A DNA stretch of 64,000 nucleotides from Verrucomicrobiota bacterium (GTDB lineage Bacteria > Verrucomicrobiota > Verrucomicrobiia > Verrucomicrobiales > DEV007). The stretch covers positions 74,195-138,194 of the forward strand of contig PKCI01000011.1 of assembly GCA_002862135.1 (NCBI GenBank), read 5' to 3'. Shown piece by piece: positions 52,899-61,165 of this stretch. Within the stretch, counting starts at the first letter, position 1. Each line of letters opens with the position of its first letter. A program made the translations under genes and the position numbers. The notes beneath the pieces are model-generated. The model was not told where the DNA came from, did not search any database, and saw only the letters and a program-made list of their open reading frames with translations.

Positions 52899-53846
52899 TC
52901 ACCTACTGATTTGACGCTCGAACTCATCCCGAAGCTTTTTGGGTGAGAGATTTGGACCAATGCAAAGCAGAGAAGCAGGCGTCCTGGTAAGCCCCTCTAC
53001 CTGTTCCGGATCCTCGACCGGATGCCGCCCCGTTCGATTAAAAAGCCACCTGGAGTCCGGAGTCCCTTCGAGTTCAACAAGTGCCTTGGCACGCACCACT
53101 TCGTCAGGAAGTGCCTCGAGAAGGCGAATAATTTGCTCACTTTGATATCGACCTGGCATCGGAATCTGGTGACCGGTAAATAGATGGGATAGGACATGCC
53201 CGCCACGCGCCTTCCGCTTCTGACGAATTTCGCTCGGATCCAATTCGACTGAGGATTGGTCACTGGATTCACAAGCCTGCACAAGTTCTTCAGCAAGCTG
53301 CTTTGCGCTTATTTTGTTTGCGTAAGGGTTGAGCTCCCCCACTGACCCAGCAACCTCTTCCCTTTCGATCTCACCGAGATCATCCGAATGAGTCAGCTGC
53401 CAGTGCGTCGCAGTCTCTACCTGGCGCTGTTCCAGGGAGGTAAACCGCTCACGCTTTCCCCAGTGACGGCCGTCGACAATCCCGGCCTGCCACCTTGGAA
53501 AAAAGGCCATCTTTTTCTCGAGCAAAGTGAACGTCTCAAGGAGAGGCAAAGGGTCGGCCGTTCCATTCAACTCGATAAGCAAAACGTCACCCTCACTGTT
53601 TTGCGCAGCGAGACAGAGTTTTACAAGGTCTTCAAGACTGTCACAGCAGGCACAACTGGCGGCGATTGGAAAAATAGAAGCTGCCCGGCCATGCAAAGTC
53701 GAAGCATCTATTTCCGCGTTTTCGTAATCGTTCAAGATTACATCGGCTCGGCAATCCAGCTGTTTCAATTCTTCGAGAAGAGAACGAAGCAAAGTCGTTT
53801 TTCCGGCCCCAAGAAACCCGGTAATAAAGAGGAGTGGCTTAGACAT
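52899..53846 (-). CDS. COG0523/CobW-family metal-transfer GTPase
   Basis: 315 residues. P-loop ITGFLGAGKTTLLRSL, the metal-binding CxCC motif in IAASCACCDSLED, the DxxG-like IELNGTADPLPLL, and a C-terminal CobW_C-like domain (FNRTGRHPVEDPEQVE). Several COG0523 proteins are Zur-regulated zinc chaperones (ZNG1/ZagA type); others serve cobalt or nitrile hydratase. It is the last of a four-gene leftward operon (55068 to 52899) with an operator-bearing promoter, a HisI variant and, across the divergent promoter, a metal-transport GTPase, which suggests a zinc role here. Confidence 0.85.
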   Translation of the reverse strand: MSKPLLFITGFLGAGKTTLLRSLLEELKQLDCRADVILNDYENAEIDASTLHGRAASIFPIAASCACCDSLEDLVKLCLAAQNSEGDVLLIELNGTADPLPLLETFTLLEKKMAFFPRWQAGIVDGRHWGKRERFTSLEQRQVETATHWQLTHSDDLGEIEREEVAGSVGELNPYANKISAKQLAEELVQACESSDQSSVELDPSEIRQKRKARGGHVLSHLFTGHQIPMPGRYQSEQIIRLLEALPDEVVRAKALVELEGTPDSRWLFNRTGRHPVEDPEQVEGLTRTPASLLCIGPNLSPKKLRDEFERQISR

Positions 53847-53864: not shown

Positions 53865-54083
53865 TCAACTCTCTGCTAAAGCGCGCTCGAGCCAGCCGAC
53901 AACTTTGTCGCGATAGGAAGATCCGAAAAGATCGATAAACATCGCGGTTGAGGGATCTTTGGCATCCTCCAATGCTCGAATTCGCTCGCTGCAATACTCC
54001 TTCGTCAACGCGATATTGCATCGACTGTTCATGGCTTCACGCCATTCCTCATAACTGACAAAAAAGTCGCCCACTTGTGCCAT
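53865..54083 (-). CDS. Small hypothetical protein in the cobW operon
   Basis: 72 residues: MAQVGDFFVSYEEWREAMNS with an aromatic/acidic N-terminus, then LTKEYCSERIRALEDAKDPS and DLFGSSYRDKVVGWLERALA. Its ATG overlaps the hisI stop by one base (TAATG), so it is translationally coupled. Family not recognised; a helical partner or small metal protein is possible but unsupported. Confidence 0.65.
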   Translation of the reverse strand: MAQVGDFFVSYEEWREAMNSRCNIALTKEYCSERIRALEDAKDPSTAMFIDLFGSSYRDKVVGWLERALAES

Positions 54084-54580
54084 TACAACTGAGTCGGGTT
54101 CGGAGTGTCACCGTAAACGGCGTCGGGATCGAAAGCCTTCTCAGACTCAATAAACCGCAGTTCGGGCTGATCGCTTCCACTGCCAGATACTTCGCGGTAG
54201 AAACAACTGCGATAACCGACGTGGCAGGACGCCTCCTCGCCACCGGCATCGGGAGTGGTCAGGGTGACCTCGATGATGACACAGTCCTGATCGTCATCGA
54301 TGAGCATGCGCTTAACCTGCTGAGTCATTCCGGACGTTTCACCCTTTTTCCAAAGCTTTTGCCGGGAACGCGACCAGTAGTGCGCCAGCCGGGTTTCAAT
54401 AGTAAGCCGAAGCGCCTCTTCATTCATAAAGGCGAACATCAGAATTTCCCGACTCTTTGCATGCTGAGTGATACAGGGAATAACCCCATTCTGATCAAAC
54501 TTCGGAGCAAGCTCACTACCCTCTTCTACCTGCTCAACGCTGGTTCGGTCCGCAAAATTTAATGTTGTGTTAGTGTTCAT
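54083..54580 (-). CDS. hisI: Phosphoribosyl-AMP cyclohydrolase, variant metal site
   Basis: 165 residues from MNTNTTLNFADRTSVEQVEE; GGAAAG precedes the ATG. Third step of histidine synthesis, a zinc enzyme. Conserved: HYWSRSRQKLWKKGETSG and SCHVGYRSCFYREV with two of the three zinc Cys. The first Cys, normally in DCDxD, is Asp here (LIDDDQDCVIIEV), with a Cys four residues on. The C-terminal tail AFDPDAVYGDTPNPTQL and DDDQD match, as I recall, an alphaproteobacterial-type HisI. Overlaps its upstream neighbour by ATGA. Position in a metal operon suggests a version that copes with low zinc; this is inference. Confidence 0.85.
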   Translation of the reverse strand: MNTNTTLNFADRTSVEQVEEGSELAPKFDQNGVIPCITQHAKSREILMFAFMNEEALRLTIETRLAHYWSRSRQKLWKKGETSGMTQQVKRMLIDDDQDCVIIEVTLTTPDAGGEEASCHVGYRSCFYREVSGSGSDQPELRFIESEKAFDPDAVYGDTPNPTQL

Positions 54581-55068
54581 CTTTCCAATAAAATCTCTTC
54601 CGCTGTAGAACGAGAAATGTATTCGGAGCACTCCTGCCAATGATCAGGAGCCACTCGCCCCACTTCTTTGTCATCGTGCGAGCGGAGACTTTTCAGCTGG
54701 CTCTCCCGAATATCGTTAAAGAGAGATTCCGCGAGGAACCTCTCGGTTGCTGACACGTTCGGAATATCAAAGAAGAGCTGATGCTTCCTGGATTCGTGCC
54801 TCAGTGCACTGAGCACCTCCAGGATAAGACTTTCCCCCAGCTCCACCCCAACCTGGACTGCCGTCGTTCTATATTCGATGATGAGCCCTTTGATTTGCTC
54901 AAGGATCTCTTCAAGCACGCGATCGTTTTCGATTCCGGAGGAGAACTCTTCAGCCTCTGCTGCGCTCCGGCTGCTGTAGGCGCGGAAAAAGGTGATATAA
55001 CCTTCCCGACAAGAACCGAAGGGAAGGCCCTCCCGTTGGCTCGGATCGTAAAAGCGTTCATTGTTCAT
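54577..55068 (-). CDS. Hypothetical protein heading the hisI-cobW operon
   Basis: 163 residues from MNNERFYDPSQREGLPFGSC, soluble and acidic. Segments IENDRVLEEILEQIKGLIIE, VQVGVELGESLILEVLSALR and KHQLFFDIPNVSATERFLAE suggest helices around a small sheet. No recognised family. Its stop overlaps the hisI start (ATGA). It is the first gene after the divergent promoter region with the paired palindromes. Confidence 0.65.
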   Translation of the reverse strand: MNNERFYDPSQREGLPFGSCREGYITFFRAYSSRSAAEAEEFSSGIENDRVLEEILEQIKGLIIEYRTTAVQVGVELGESLILEVLSALRHESRKHQLFFDIPNVSATERFLAESLFNDIRESQLKSLRSHDDKEVGRVAPDHWQECSEYISRSTAEEILLER

Positions 55069-55188
55069 AAGGGGAACCAAAAGGACTGTGCAAAGAGACC
55101 CGCCTACACGACGGAAAACAATCGTGTCTGTCCTGAGCAACAGAGGGCAACACCAGACGGGGAGTTCAGACGAACTGAACCCCACAAT

Positions 55189-55231
55189 TGCAAAGTACTT
55201 GCATTAAAAATAAACGCAAATAATTTGCATT
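55189..55231. promoter_or_regulatory. Two copies of a palindromic operator-like motif
   Basis: GCAAAGTACTTGCATT at 55190-55205 and GCAAATAATTTGCATT at 55216-55231 share the form GCAAA-N4-TTGCATT (TGCAA-N5-TTGCA as a palindrome, extended in the second copy to near-perfect symmetry). They start 26 bases apart; the second ends 1 base before the ATG at 55233. Placed in the divergent promoter region of the metal operon and the oxidoreductase/FeoB-like pair, they look like paired sites for a Fur/Zur-family repressor, which is inference. Confidence 0.6.
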
Positions 55232-55232
55232 T

Positions 55233-56438
55233 ATGCCTCTGAAAATCAAACCAAAGCCAGCATCTCCTGTATACGATGTCGTCATTGTCGGCGCAGGTCC
55301 GGCCGGGCTGGGTTGCGCGGCTGCCCTCAAGGAATGCGGGATCGAGAACCTCGCGATTGTCGACCGCCGAGAGGTGGGAGCCTCTTTCGACGCATGGCCC
55401 GCACAGATGCGGATGATTTCGCCGTCGTTTCATTCAAACCCGTTCTCGCAGCCCGATCTCAACGCCATCACTCCGCACACATCACCGGCAGACTACGTCC
55501 ACTCCGAGCATCCCACCGGTCCCGAATATGCCCACTACCTCAGGGCAATCGCTGAGTATTACCAGGTCGAGGTAAAGACAGGGATCGAAATCACGGGTGT
55601 GAAACAATCGAAGGGCGCCCTTGTAGTTGAGGGGGCATCAAAGCCACTTCGGGCCCGACATGTCATCTGGACCGGAGGCGAGTTCTTCTTTCCCCGCCAG
55701 GAGATCAAGGGAGTTGAGCACTGCATTCACAACAGTTCTATATCCGACTGGAGCAAACTGGAAGGAGTCGAGCACGCCATCATCGGAGGATTCGAAAGCG
55801 GAATCGACGCCGCTGTCCATCTAGCTCGACAGGGAAAGTCTGTTCATGTCCTCTCCCGTGGTGAGCCTTGGCACCAGAACAGCCCGGATCCAAGCCGCGC
55901 ACTCAGCCCCTTCACCATTGACCGGCTCAAAGACGTTCTCCTCAACGCCCCCGGAACAATTCGATTCTATAAAAATGCTGACATCGTCGAAGTCACGAAA
56001 ACCGGAGACAGCTACATTCTGGTGGACGAAGAAAGCGAGCCTTTTGAAGTCTCAACCCCGCCAATTCTCGCCACAGGATTTCTCGGAGGAATGGGCCCCG
56101 TCTCTTCCTGGTTTGAGGACAAAAACGGACGCATCGCCTTCACTGAGGAAGCCGACGAGTCACCTTCGCTTCCAAACCTTTTCTACAGCGGGCCACTGCT
56201 TCAGCACCGCCAGTCACTTTTTTGCTTCATCTACAAATTCCGCGCCCGTTTCGGAATCATCGCCCGGACCATTGCGGAACGCCTCGGACATGAGTGGGAA
56301 GAGCCGCTCAAGCAATGGCGGGAGCGGGGCTTCATGATTGATGACCTTGCGTGCTGCCAAGATTGCACCTGCGCCGTCGAAACTGAAGACGAGATCGCTC
56401 CGGCCGAGGTCGAAGAATACGCGACTGCCACTCAATAA
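55233..56438 (+). CDS. FAD/NAD(P)-binding oxidoreductase with Cys-cluster tail
   Basis: 401 residues. FAD motif VVIVGAGPAGLGCAAAL, NAD(P) motif HAIIGGFESGIDAAVHLA and GATG-like ATGFLGGMGPV: the thioredoxin-reductase/flavin-monooxygenase-like fold of YpdA/CzcO-type proteins. No redox CxxC in the usual place. Near the C-terminus comes DDLACCQDCTCAVETEDE, a compact CCxxCxC cluster followed by acids, a plausible metal site. The start abuts the operator-like palindrome, so the transcript is short-leadered or leaderless. The FeoB-like gene follows 81 bases later; a role in metal or thiol redox handling is inferred. Confidence 0.75.
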   Translation: MPLKIKPKPASPVYDVVIVGAGPAGLGCAAALKECGIENLAIVDRREVGASFDAWPAQMRMISPSFHSNPFSQPDLNAITPHTSPADYVHSEHPTGPEYAHYLRAIAEYYQVEVKTGIEITGVKQSKGALVVEGASKPLRARHVIWTGGEFFFPRQEIKGVEHCIHNSSISDWSKLEGVEHAIIGGFESGIDAAVHLARQGKSVHVLSRGEPWHQNSPDPSRALSPFTIDRLKDVLLNAPGTIRFYKNADIVEVTKTGDSYILVDEESEPFEVSTPPILATGFLGGMGPVSSWFEDKNGRIAFTEEADESPSLPNLFYSGPLLQHRQSLFCFIYKFRARFGIIARTIAERLGHEWEEPLKQWRERGFMIDDLACCQDCTCAVETEDEIAPAEVEEYATATQ

Positions 56439-56519: not shown

Positions 56520-58217
56520 ATGAAAACCATTTATCCCTCATCACCACGATCAAAAGCGGAAGCAGAGCAGGCCCGCCAGATCGTTACCCTGGGACTCGAG
56601 AGCGTGGGAAAAACACAACTGCTCGCCCGCCTCAGCGGACGTTTCGCGACACCGGAAAACTATCGTGGCTCAACTCTGGCTTGCGACTCATACACCGATT
56701 CCGGTTTCATCTGGATTGACACTCCCGGGATCTTCCGTGGCTCGGAGACTCAAACCTCCAGTGAAACCCGCAAGGCGGTAGCCCAGGCAGATCAGGTTCT
56801 GCTCGTCGTGCGAGCAGATCACGCCGCTGATCAATTGGAGACTCTGCTTCCTCTCGTTGAGGGCAAAGCGGGTGTCCTCGTGCTCACCTTTGCGGATCGC
56901 CTGCCGGAGTCAAAAGACAGGGCTCAATTGCAGAACGATTTCCGCCTCGCGTTGGGAGTTCCTGTCTTCCTCCTCGACACCCGCGCAGTTGTTGAAAAAA
57001 ACAGGGCCTCTATTCGCGAGGCCGTGGCAGCTCAAAAAAATCATCGCTTCCGCACGAGCGATATCTCCGCACTCATCAGCAAATACCCGTCCCGAAAAAC
57101 GAGCACAACAGTGAGCGAAAAGATCGTGAGCCAACCACTCGTTGCTCTGGGTCTCCTTCTACTTCCCACCGTCGTGGCCGTAACACAGGCGAACCGTTTT
57201 GCTGACTGGCTCTCCACTCCCCTGACAAACATCATCAGTCCGCTGCAATCGTGGATCGAGAGTGGGCCTGCCTTTCTCGCAGCCATCCTTGCGGGTAACT
57301 ACGGACTCGTTTCGATGTTCCCCTTTCTGCTGCTGTATGCTCTTCCAACGATCCTCATCTTTTCAACGATTCTCGCGGTCTATAAGTCCACCGGCTTGAT
57401 CGATCGTCTTTCCGTGGCGCTTCATCCGTTTCTGAGACCTTTTGGGATCGGAGGGCGCGACCTGGTACGAGTTGTCATGGGATTCGGATGCAATGTCCCT
57501 GCCGTGGTCGCCACTCGCTCCTGTGCTTCCTGTTCGCGGGGCGCCTGCGTATCCGCTATCTCATTCGGCTCAGCCTGCTCCTACCAACTCCCGGCAACAC
57601 TGGCAGTTTTCGCCGCTGCCGGAATGACAGGTCTCGGGGTGGTTTATATTGGAGTGCTGGCAGTTACCACCCTGATCTACCTTCGCTTCAACACTCCTAA
57701 AGTGCTCCGACTCGCTAACAATCAATTGCTCCTTCCCGAGTCTGACCCCATTCACGTGCCCTCTCTGCGTGGCGTGACGCGCGAAGTCGTCGACAACATT
57801 CGCCAGTTCGTGATCATGGCCTTCCCGGTTTTTGCCGCGATCTGCTTTGTGGCAGCTTCGCTCGCCTACTTCGGCATCCTTGATGCCTTTGCCGGTTTCC
57901 TCGCTCCCCTGATGGCGGTGTTCCGCCTGCCCGGGGAAGCGGCGACTTCGATCGCCTTGGGTTCCATCCGCAAGGACGGTATTGCGATCGGATTGCTCGA
58001 CGATGACTGGGGAACTCTCAAGGTCGCTCTGGGAGATCCCGCGCAAGTGCTTACGGCAGTTTATCTGGCAGGTGTCCTCCTCCCCTGCCTCGTCACTCTC
58101 TACACCATCGGGCGGGAGATGCGTTGGGGATTCGCGGCTAGGCTTTGCCTGAGGCAAATGGCCTGGGCCAGCGGGTTCGCCATTGCGATCGCCTGGCTCG
58201 GAGCGCTGATTTTCTGA
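56520..58217 (+). CDS. FeoB-like GTPase membrane transporter
   Basis: 565 residues; an in-frame TTG lies at 56466. An N-terminal G domain with the P-loop TLGLESVGKTQLLARL and WIDTPGIF (DTPG box), short for the family, then a membrane domain with about eight helices whose Gate/core motif is FeoB-like: GFGCNVPAVVATRSCASCSR followed by FGSACSYQLPATLAVFAAAG, including the conserved Cys and Pro-Ala. Real FeoB is about 700-800 residues with a longer G domain and spacer, and no feoA is here. The Cys-rich RSCASCSRGAC loop is unlike iron FeoB. Likely a divalent-metal importer or exporter; zinc is suggested by context. Confidence 0.75.
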   Translation: MKTIYPSSPRSKAEAEQARQIVTLGLESVGKTQLLARLSGRFATPENYRGSTLACDSYTDSGFIWIDTPGIFRGSETQTSSETRKAVAQADQVLLVVRADHAADQLETLLPLVEGKAGVLVLTFADRLPESKDRAQLQNDFRLALGVPVFLLDTRAVVEKNRASIREAVAAQKNHRFRTSDISALISKYPSRKTSTTVSEKIVSQPLVALGLLLLPTVVAVTQANRFADWLSTPLTNIISPLQSWIESGPAFLAAILAGNYGLVSMFPFLLLYALPTILIFSTILAVYKSTGLIDRLSVALHPFLRPFGIGGRDLVRVVMGFGCNVPAVVATRSCASCSRGACVSAISFGSACSYQLPATLAVFAAAGMTGLGVVYIGVLAVTTLIYLRFNTPKVLRLANNQLLLPESDPIHVPSLRGVTREVVDNIRQFVIMAFPVFAAICFVAASLAYFGILDAFAGFLAPLMAVFRLPGEAATSIALGSIRKDGIAIGLLDDDWGTLKVALGDPAQVLTAVYLAGVLLPCLVTLYTIGREMRWGFAARLCLRQMAWASGFAIAIAWLGALIF

Positions 58218-58300: not shown

Positions 58301-58468
58301 TTAACCGTGGCAGTCGCACACTCCGTTGCAGCAACCATCGCCTGAGGCATGGCCGCTGGCGCAGGCTTCGCTGCAGTAGTCTTTTCCGTCTTTGACGACA
58401 TGATGGCCCTCAGAAACGCTGCATTTGCAGTCAGGGCAGGCGCATTTGATATCACTTGAAGCATTCAT
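58301..58468 (-). CDS. smtA: Bacterial metallothionein (SmtA/BmtA family)
   Basis: 55 residues from MNASSDIKCACPDCKCSV; the frame is open further up only through the shared operator. About ten Cys and several His in the BmtA pattern: CACPDCKCSV, GKDYCSEACASGH and GDGCCNGVCDCHG (PF02069 type). Binds about four zinc ions in a cluster within the cytoplasm and buffers excess zinc or cadmium. It faces away from the SmtB-type repressor gene across the operator at 58475-58500, the same arrangement as smtA-smtB in Synechococcus. Confidence 0.9.
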   Translation of the reverse strand: MNASSDIKCACPDCKCSVSEGHHVVKDGKDYCSEACASGHASGDGCCNGVCDCHG

Positions 58469-58474
58469 ACGGTC

Positions 58475-58500
58475 AATACCTGAACATACGCTCAGGTATT
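58475..58500. promoter_or_regulatory. SmtB-type operator between smtA and smtB
   Basis: Perfect inverted repeat: AATACCTGA, 8 bases, TCAGGTATT. The TGAACA element and the 9-base arms resemble known ArsR/SmtB operators (12-2-12 type). It lies 6 bases from the smtA ATG, so it would block both promoters. Confidence 0.85.
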
Positions 58501-58541: not shown

Positions 58542-58919
58542 ATGCCGAAAAAGCCATCCAAGGAAAACAACGACAGCGATCCCCCCGTCTGTGACGAGCA
58601 TCACCATTCGACCGCGGCTGGCACCTCATTTCCCCTAGAGATTGAGGACTCGCAGCGGATGGCCGAGTTCTTCGGCGTGCTGGCTGACCCAACCCGCCTG
58701 CGCCTGATTTCACTGCTTTCCACTTCCGAGAGTTGCGTGTGCGACCTGGCAGAGAATCTATCAGTGTCTGAGTCAGCCGTTTCCCATCAACTTCGAGCCC
58801 TCCGAAACGCCCGCCTTGTTCGATACAGAAAGAGTGGTCGCCAGGTGTTCTACCGGCTCCATGATCATCACGTCTTCGACCTCTACGAAACGGTTCGGGA
58901 ACATCTCGCAGAAACATGA
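58542..58919 (+). CDS. smtB: SmtB-type zinc-responsive ArsR-family repressor
   Basis: 125 residues from MPKKPSKENN (ATG at 58518 is the alternative). The winged-helix part FFGVLADPTRLRLISLL, SVSESAVSHQLRALRNARLV is close to Synechococcus SmtB. Both metal sites look present: the alpha3N site with CVCDL and an N-terminal VCDEHHHST, and the alpha5 site in LHDHHVFDLYETVREHLAE (Asp-x-His and His-x-x-Glu). Zinc release from DNA is the known mechanism in the family. It would repress itself and smtA through the operator just upstream. Confidence 0.9.
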   Translation: MPKKPSKENNDSDPPVCDEHHHSTAAGTSFPLEIEDSQRMAEFFGVLADPTRLRLISLLSTSESCVCDLAENLSVSESAVSHQLRALRNARLVRYRKSGRQVFYRLHDHHVFDLYETVREHLAET

Positions 58920-60537: not shown

Positions 60538-61044
60538 CTAATCAACGGAGTTGCGGGAAACTCCGGACGCTTTGATTAACTCTTCGACCACGGGATAAAG
60601 GCCCGCGGCCAAAGCAAAGAGTCGTTCATCAGACATGTCGCTCCGGGCCATGCCGTTCACCAAGCGGGACAAATCTCCGATCAGTTTATGAACGTGATCC
60701 TGGTTGGTGGCGTTCTCCGGCATCGTCTTCGGTGATACCGCCCACCCCATTTCAAGGATCGCCGTGCGTTGATGCAGCAATCCCTCCCGATCCTTGTTTT
60801 CTGCAAGAACCCCCGCCATGAAAGCGACTTTCTCGAGGGCATCCAATTCCGGCCAAGTGATTCCTCCTACGCCTCCATTTCCAGGGACGGCCGAAGCGCT
60901 AGGGCTCACTAATCCGGAACGACCGTCTTCGTCCGATCCCTCTTCCGTCCATTCGCTCTTTTCTCCACAAGATGAGGACAACAACGCGACCAAACCTACC
61001 GAGAAAAGACGATTGAGATACCAATAGCGGGTCCTCATCATCAC
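60538..61044 (-). CDS. Putative lipoprotein, unknown function
   Basis: 168 residues; the first three codons are all Met, so the exact start is uncertain. Signal sequence RLFSVGLVALLSSSCGEKSE with a lipobox Cys at about residue 26, then an acidic/Ser-Gly-rich linker and a helical domain (DALEKVAFMAGVLAENKDRE, LIGDLSRLVNGMARSDMSDE). No family recognised. Confidence 0.65.
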   Translation of the reverse strand: MMMRTRYWYLNRLFSVGLVALLSSSCGEKSEWTEEGSDEDGRSGLVSPSASAVPGNGGVGGITWPELDALEKVAFMAGVLAENKDREGLLHQRTAILEMGWAVSPKTMPENATNQDHVHKLIGDLSRLVNGMARSDMSDERLFALAAGLYPVVEELIKASGVSRNSVD

Positions 61045-61165
61045 TACCGTCTCACCGCAGAAATCTATTGCAAGAAACTTGCGATTAATAATCTACGTGG
61101 GTGTCCAAAGCGTGTTTTTGCTCCACCCCATGGCGCTCGCCACTGGCGCGAAGAGATTTCTATCC

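Follow-up and report, generated by a model that had tools for sequence, protein, structure and literature searches.

Zur boxes vary between lineages (PMC6103462), and in several of the described systems they are embedded in the promoters that they control. C. glutamicum has divergent, leaderless promoters that share sequence with Zur boxes (PMC2823685), and two boxes, one over the −35 and one over the −10 element, are found at yciC of B. subtilis and at znuA of S. coelicolor (PMC6103462). The E. coli box, TRWNAYRWTATAWYRTNWCA, is occupied by two dimers, and a dimer of dimers can occupy znu promoters (PMC6103462). Genes for HisI and COG0523 proteins occur in Zur regulons (PMC2770081). The type of control discussed here is a known one, with HisI and COG0523 genes as known Zur targets; the box through which it would act, and part of the gene set, are what we describe below.

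The window, that is, the whole 64,000-nucleotide stretch of Verrucomicrobiales DNA analysed, contains two palindromes, GCAAAGTACTTGCATT at 55190–55205 and GCAAATAATTTGCATT at 55216–55231. The distance from start to start is exactly 26 bp, and the downstream palindrome stops one base short of the ATG at 55233; a first-pass annotation had pointed out both the spacing and the closeness to the start codon, and the sequence agrees. The core of each is an odd palindrome, GCAA-N5-TTGC, and the second grows to a 12-1-12 palindrome (92%). The conserved box comprises 25 bp and reads approximately TTAAYGCAA-N5-TTGCRTTAA. Box 1 accordingly spans 55184–55208 (core GCAAAGTACTTGC, 55190–55202) and box 2 spans 55210–55234 (core GCAAATAATTTGC, 55216–55228), with centres at 55196 and 55222, again 26 bp apart, and with box 2 overlapping the ATG. 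The motif originally put forward, GCAAA-N4-TTGCATT, is thus real but slightly too narrow, and the original interval of 55189–55231 covers the cores but falls short of the full boxes.

That motif occurs twice in the window and its paired form once, compared with 0.0 in 100 Markov-1 windows. A pair with no mismatch to GCAAN5TTGC-N13-GCAAN5TTGC is present twice in this genome (a 3.48-Mb assembly). In a phylum-wide sample of 388 genomes, 5 contain such a pair and none contains the pattern read backwards. Lone GCAA-N5-TTGC cores do arise randomly, at about 1.3 per window, which could suggest chance palindromes in AT-rich intergenic DNA. This reading has next to no probability left and is already refuted by the pairing, the register, the conservation over 25 bp and the association with genes over many genomes.

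Divergent genes flank the pair. Rightwards, on the + strand, the first gene (55233–56438) encodes a Pyr_redox_3/YpdA-like flavoprotein with a Cys-rich tail, CCQDCTC, and the second (56520–58217) a FeoB-like GTPase-permease with a FeoB_N and two Gate domains. Leftwards, on the − strand, the first gene encodes a conserved protein of 163 aa (54577–55068), followed by the zinc enzyme HisI, phosphoribosyl-AMP cyclohydrolase (54083–54580; PF01502, with NF000768 above cut-off), a conserved protein of 72 aa (53865–54083; same gene order in L087, L099 and L103) and a COG0523/CobW-type GTPase, a candidate metallochaperone (52899–53846; PF02492 and PF07683). Neither the 163-aa nor the 72-aa protein matched a Pfam or NCBIfam family. 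As the start of the left operon, a GTG at 55185, which lies five bases to the left of the box 1 core, would mirror the right-hand geometry; the extra N terminus is not conserved in the close relative L087, and 55068 was therefore taken as the left start. The presumed leader of this operon carries a hairpin, GGAGTTCAG/CTGAACCCC, at 55161–55183. The leader folds somewhat more stably than shuffled sequences do (z = −2.0), and the hairpin is not evident in L087.

Among the described systems, the Zur regulon of C. glutamicum is alike in its palindrome with one central base, in boxes that are shared by divergent units and overlap core promoters, in some leaderless transcripts and in targets that include znu and COG0523 genes (PMC2823685). 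Its box, for which the S. coelicolor relative is TGAAAATGATTTTCA, is unlike TTAAYGCAA-N5-TTGCRTTAA, and no pair of flavoprotein and FeoB-like genes was noticed among its targets (PMC2823685). The E. coli box also differs in sequence from that of the pair; the likeness lies in the dimer of dimers at znu promoters, although E. coli places two dimers on one box (PMC6103462), whereas here there are two full boxes 26 bp apart. The yciC and znuA promoters share the arrangement of two boxes before COG0523 or znuA genes (PMC6103462) and differ from the present locus in its divergent pair, its fixed spacing of 25–27 bp and its start codon at the edge of the second box. The COG0523/HisI sets that respond to zinc starvation are alike in having both genes under a Zur-type site, and the text describing them makes no mention of Verrucomicrobia or FeoB (PMC2770081).

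To score sites, we used a symmetric 25-bp matrix derived from 38 sites in relatives, from which this genome and all znuA loci were excluded; the genome was scanned by pattern matching, followed by matrix scoring of the matched loci. Box 2 has the highest score in the window (35.3, at 55222), followed by box 1 (27.6, at 55196) and a single box, TCTATTGCAAGAAACTTGCGATTAA, at 61064–61088 (26.5, at 61076), and the next value is 7.8. The single box lies approximately 20 bp in front of a gene for a predicted lipoprotein (60538–61044, − strand). Across the genome, YGCAAN5TTGCR has 13 matches, seven scoring at least 15 and the other six below 8. The seven high scorers fall at five loci: this pair, a zigA pair, znuA, znuC–znuB and the lipoprotein gene. 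The second pair (C65:2467–2505) has the same 26-bp register and lies between zigA, which is above its NCBIfam cut-off, and the gene for a 211-aa protein; the boxes at C2:28832 and C50:16236 are immediately upstream of a His-rich znuA and of znuC–znuB, respectively.

In relatives, zinc-type znuA loci carried the box in 27 out of 37 cases, compared with 0 out of 30 for the manganese-type paralogues (Fisher P = 1e-10), the two types being split by rank of profile score and, in this genome, by an adjacent MntR-like gene. At the znuA loci the boxes always lie 116–502 bp upstream of the ZnuA domain. A scan of the genome for the motif, the check suggested by the first-pass annotation, thus finds it at znuA, znuC–znuB and zigA in this genome and at zinc-type znuA in relatives, two of which have it at a Fur-family gene; no ribosomal gene was among the high-scoring sites of this genome in the pattern search. 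Random scatter is excluded, given that high-scoring boxes lie at zinc genes and little else and that reversed sequence contained no score of at least 15 in 452 kb.

Orthologues of the flavoprotein gene at 55233 had the box at their promoter in all 13 loci, which came from a scan of named genomes with a flavoprotein alignment, several of them being contigs already in the set of relatives. All 13 are in Verrucomicrobiales/Akkermansiaceae-type assemblies, their box spacing is 26 bp (eight loci), 27 bp (three) or 25 bp (one), and in most the ATG follows approximately five bases beyond the TTGC of the second box. The pair adjoins flavoprotein/FeoB-like genes in L081, L085, L087, L099 and L103, and zigA in L083, L086, L093, L094, L096, L101 and L104–L106. 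In L105 and L106, which belong to another part of the phylum, it is situated between zigA and a divergent Fur-family gene. Orthologues of the lipoprotein gene in other genomes had the box in 12 of 16 loci, with one box each.

Several further features accompany the box. Boxes at znuA (for example, L174, L185, L191 and L197) occur in twos and threes, mainly 23 or 36–38 bp apart, unlike the fixed 25–27 bp of the divergent pairs. A conserved protein of approximately 211 aa, with no family match, is regularly encoded beside zigA and the paired box (L028:2510–3145; L083, L086, L096, L101 and L104), and its ATG abuts the second box in several loci. Some lipoprotein orthologues adjoin an ABC ATPase and a MacB/FtsX permease, and a long homologue of the lipoprotein had no Pfam or NCBIfam match. 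In relatives, more COG0523 GTPases are encoded close to the box, as is a membrane protein with a MerC domain (PF03203, L092); these genes (L094:4763–5755, L092:6133–7776 and L101:1329–2958) are further candidate zinc genes.

The pair is very probably a Zur-type operator, at which a zinc-loaded Fur-family repressor, probably a protein encoded on contig C2, would block a two-way promoter until zinc becomes scarce. Zinc as the signal, repression as the mode of control and the C2 protein as the binder are what we infer from these associations. The first-pass suggestion of a Fur/Zur-family operator gains support from the boxes at znuA, znuC–znuB and zigA and from the Fur-family gene beside the pair in two relatives. 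It is very unlikely that the box is instead read by Mur or Fur in response to manganese or iron, with the flanking genes, the FeoB-like permease included, serving one of these metals. That permease does resemble a ferrous iron transporter, and among solved structures the C2 protein comes closest to iron Fur proteins, Zur entries ranking lower. A match of the box to alphaproteobacterial Mur boxes was considered as well, and we found no documentation for it in the literature. Yet none of the 30 manganese-type PF01297 loci carries the box, the manganese-type copy in this genome adjoins an MntR/DtxR-like gene, and the remaining box loci are zinc genes, namely zigA, the His-rich znuA, znuCB, and the COG0523 and HisI genes.

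Three Fur-family proteins are encoded in this genome, two of them adjoining sufBC and argH, respectively. The third (C2:19531–19971, G000) is encoded 9 kb from znuA and has a Fur domain well above threshold (PF01475, 52 bits compared with a cut-off of 23.1). The protein is conserved throughout the family: two CxxC pairs (C102/C105 and C143/C146) are invariant, H96 is conserved at 97%, and D98, C115, E121 and H135 are conserved at 100%. On the alignment, these residues would fit an N2OS sensor of the kind known from Zur (PMC6103462). Its best NCBIfam matches are iron-Fur models, all below cut-off, and no Zur model was called. We therefore name it a Zur candidate only, and regard it as the likely binder of the box.

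The operator could also respond to zinc starvation through a non-Fur protein or through another Fur protein of this genome, which we consider unlikely. The C2 gene lies 9 kb from znuA and has no direct link to the box in this genome. Of the promoters of this gene and its orthologues, 32 out of 33 lack the box and one has it, so the gene is not autoregulated in this clade. Elsewhere, however, Fur-family genes lie directly at the box (L100, L105 and L106) or near it (L094 and L103). The paired box heads a znuA–znuC–znuB–zur operon in L100, and the last gene of this operon encodes a protein related to that of C2 (38% identity). The Fur proteins of L105 (5455–5931), L106 (5933–6409) and L103 belong to a lineage distinct from that of the C2 protein, and those of L105 and L106 are not its orthologues; in these two, the operator may have been kept while its regulator was replaced. 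The odd palindrome is a form usual for the Fur family (PMC6103462). Finally, G033, a 96%-complete genome and a single case, is without a C2-type protein and also without a box at znuA (L176).

Under control by a Zur-type repressor, plentiful zinc would keep the repressor zinc-loaded, with one dimer on each box, blocking both directions: leftwards the unit for the 163-aa protein, HisI, the 72-aa protein and the COG0523 GTPase, and rightwards the flavoprotein and FeoB-like permease genes. When zinc falls, the repressor would come off and both units would be switched on, alongside zigA, znuA, znuCB and the lipoprotein gene. The boxes would overlap the core promoter, which would itself set the 26-bp spacing. 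A possible promoter on the + strand lies within the pair (55199–55226), with TTGCAT (55199–55204) of box 1 as the −35 element, a spacer of 16 bp and TAATTT (55221–55226) of box 2 as the −10 element. An RNA starting at the ATG would be leaderless, and by symmetry the pair could drive the left operon too. A strict sigma-70 scan returned no promoter at the pair, and we thus treat the embedded leaderless promoter as a hypothesis suggested by the DNA sequence and the start-codon geometry in relatives.

Beyond the FeoB-like gene lie genes for an HMA-domain protein, a bacterial metallothionein (58301–58468, − strand; PF02069) and an ArsR/SmtB-family metalloregulator (58542–58919, + strand; PF01022, with NF033788 above cut-off). 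Between the metallothionein and smtB genes there is an SmtB/ArsR-type palindrome, AATACCTGA-N8-TCAGGTATT, at 58475–58500. It is unrelated in sequence to the paired box, and the matrix scan found no scoring box at 58.4–58.6 kb. The pair had been said to differ from the SmtB operator approximately 3 kb away; the distance is 3.3 kb and the palindromes are indeed of different sequence. Because the two operators are distinct, the accompanying idea of two regulators with opposite logic is sound as a deduction, and low-zinc control would stand beside high-zinc control within one island.

As far as the searched open literature shows, in which no Zur motif for Verrucomicrobiales was found, the box sequence is new for this lineage. 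We also found no paper that describes a flavoprotein/FeoB-like pair in a Zur regulon; its presence inside a Zur-type regulon is new and makes it a candidate zinc-acquisition pair. We propose, tentatively and with some doubt, that the two proteins form a zinc route, in which a FeoB-superfamily importer of zinc rather than iron, with the flavoprotein as its partner reductase, would be switched on when zinc runs short, from a leaderless promoter that works in both directions within the operator pair. For Verrucomicrobiales, this result offers an operator and regulon for zinc starvation that can be put to the test. It ties zinc to several uncharacterised families: the flavoprotein/FeoB-like pair, the protein encoded next to ZigA, and the lipoprotein that is often found by a MacB/FtsX-type ABC transporter.
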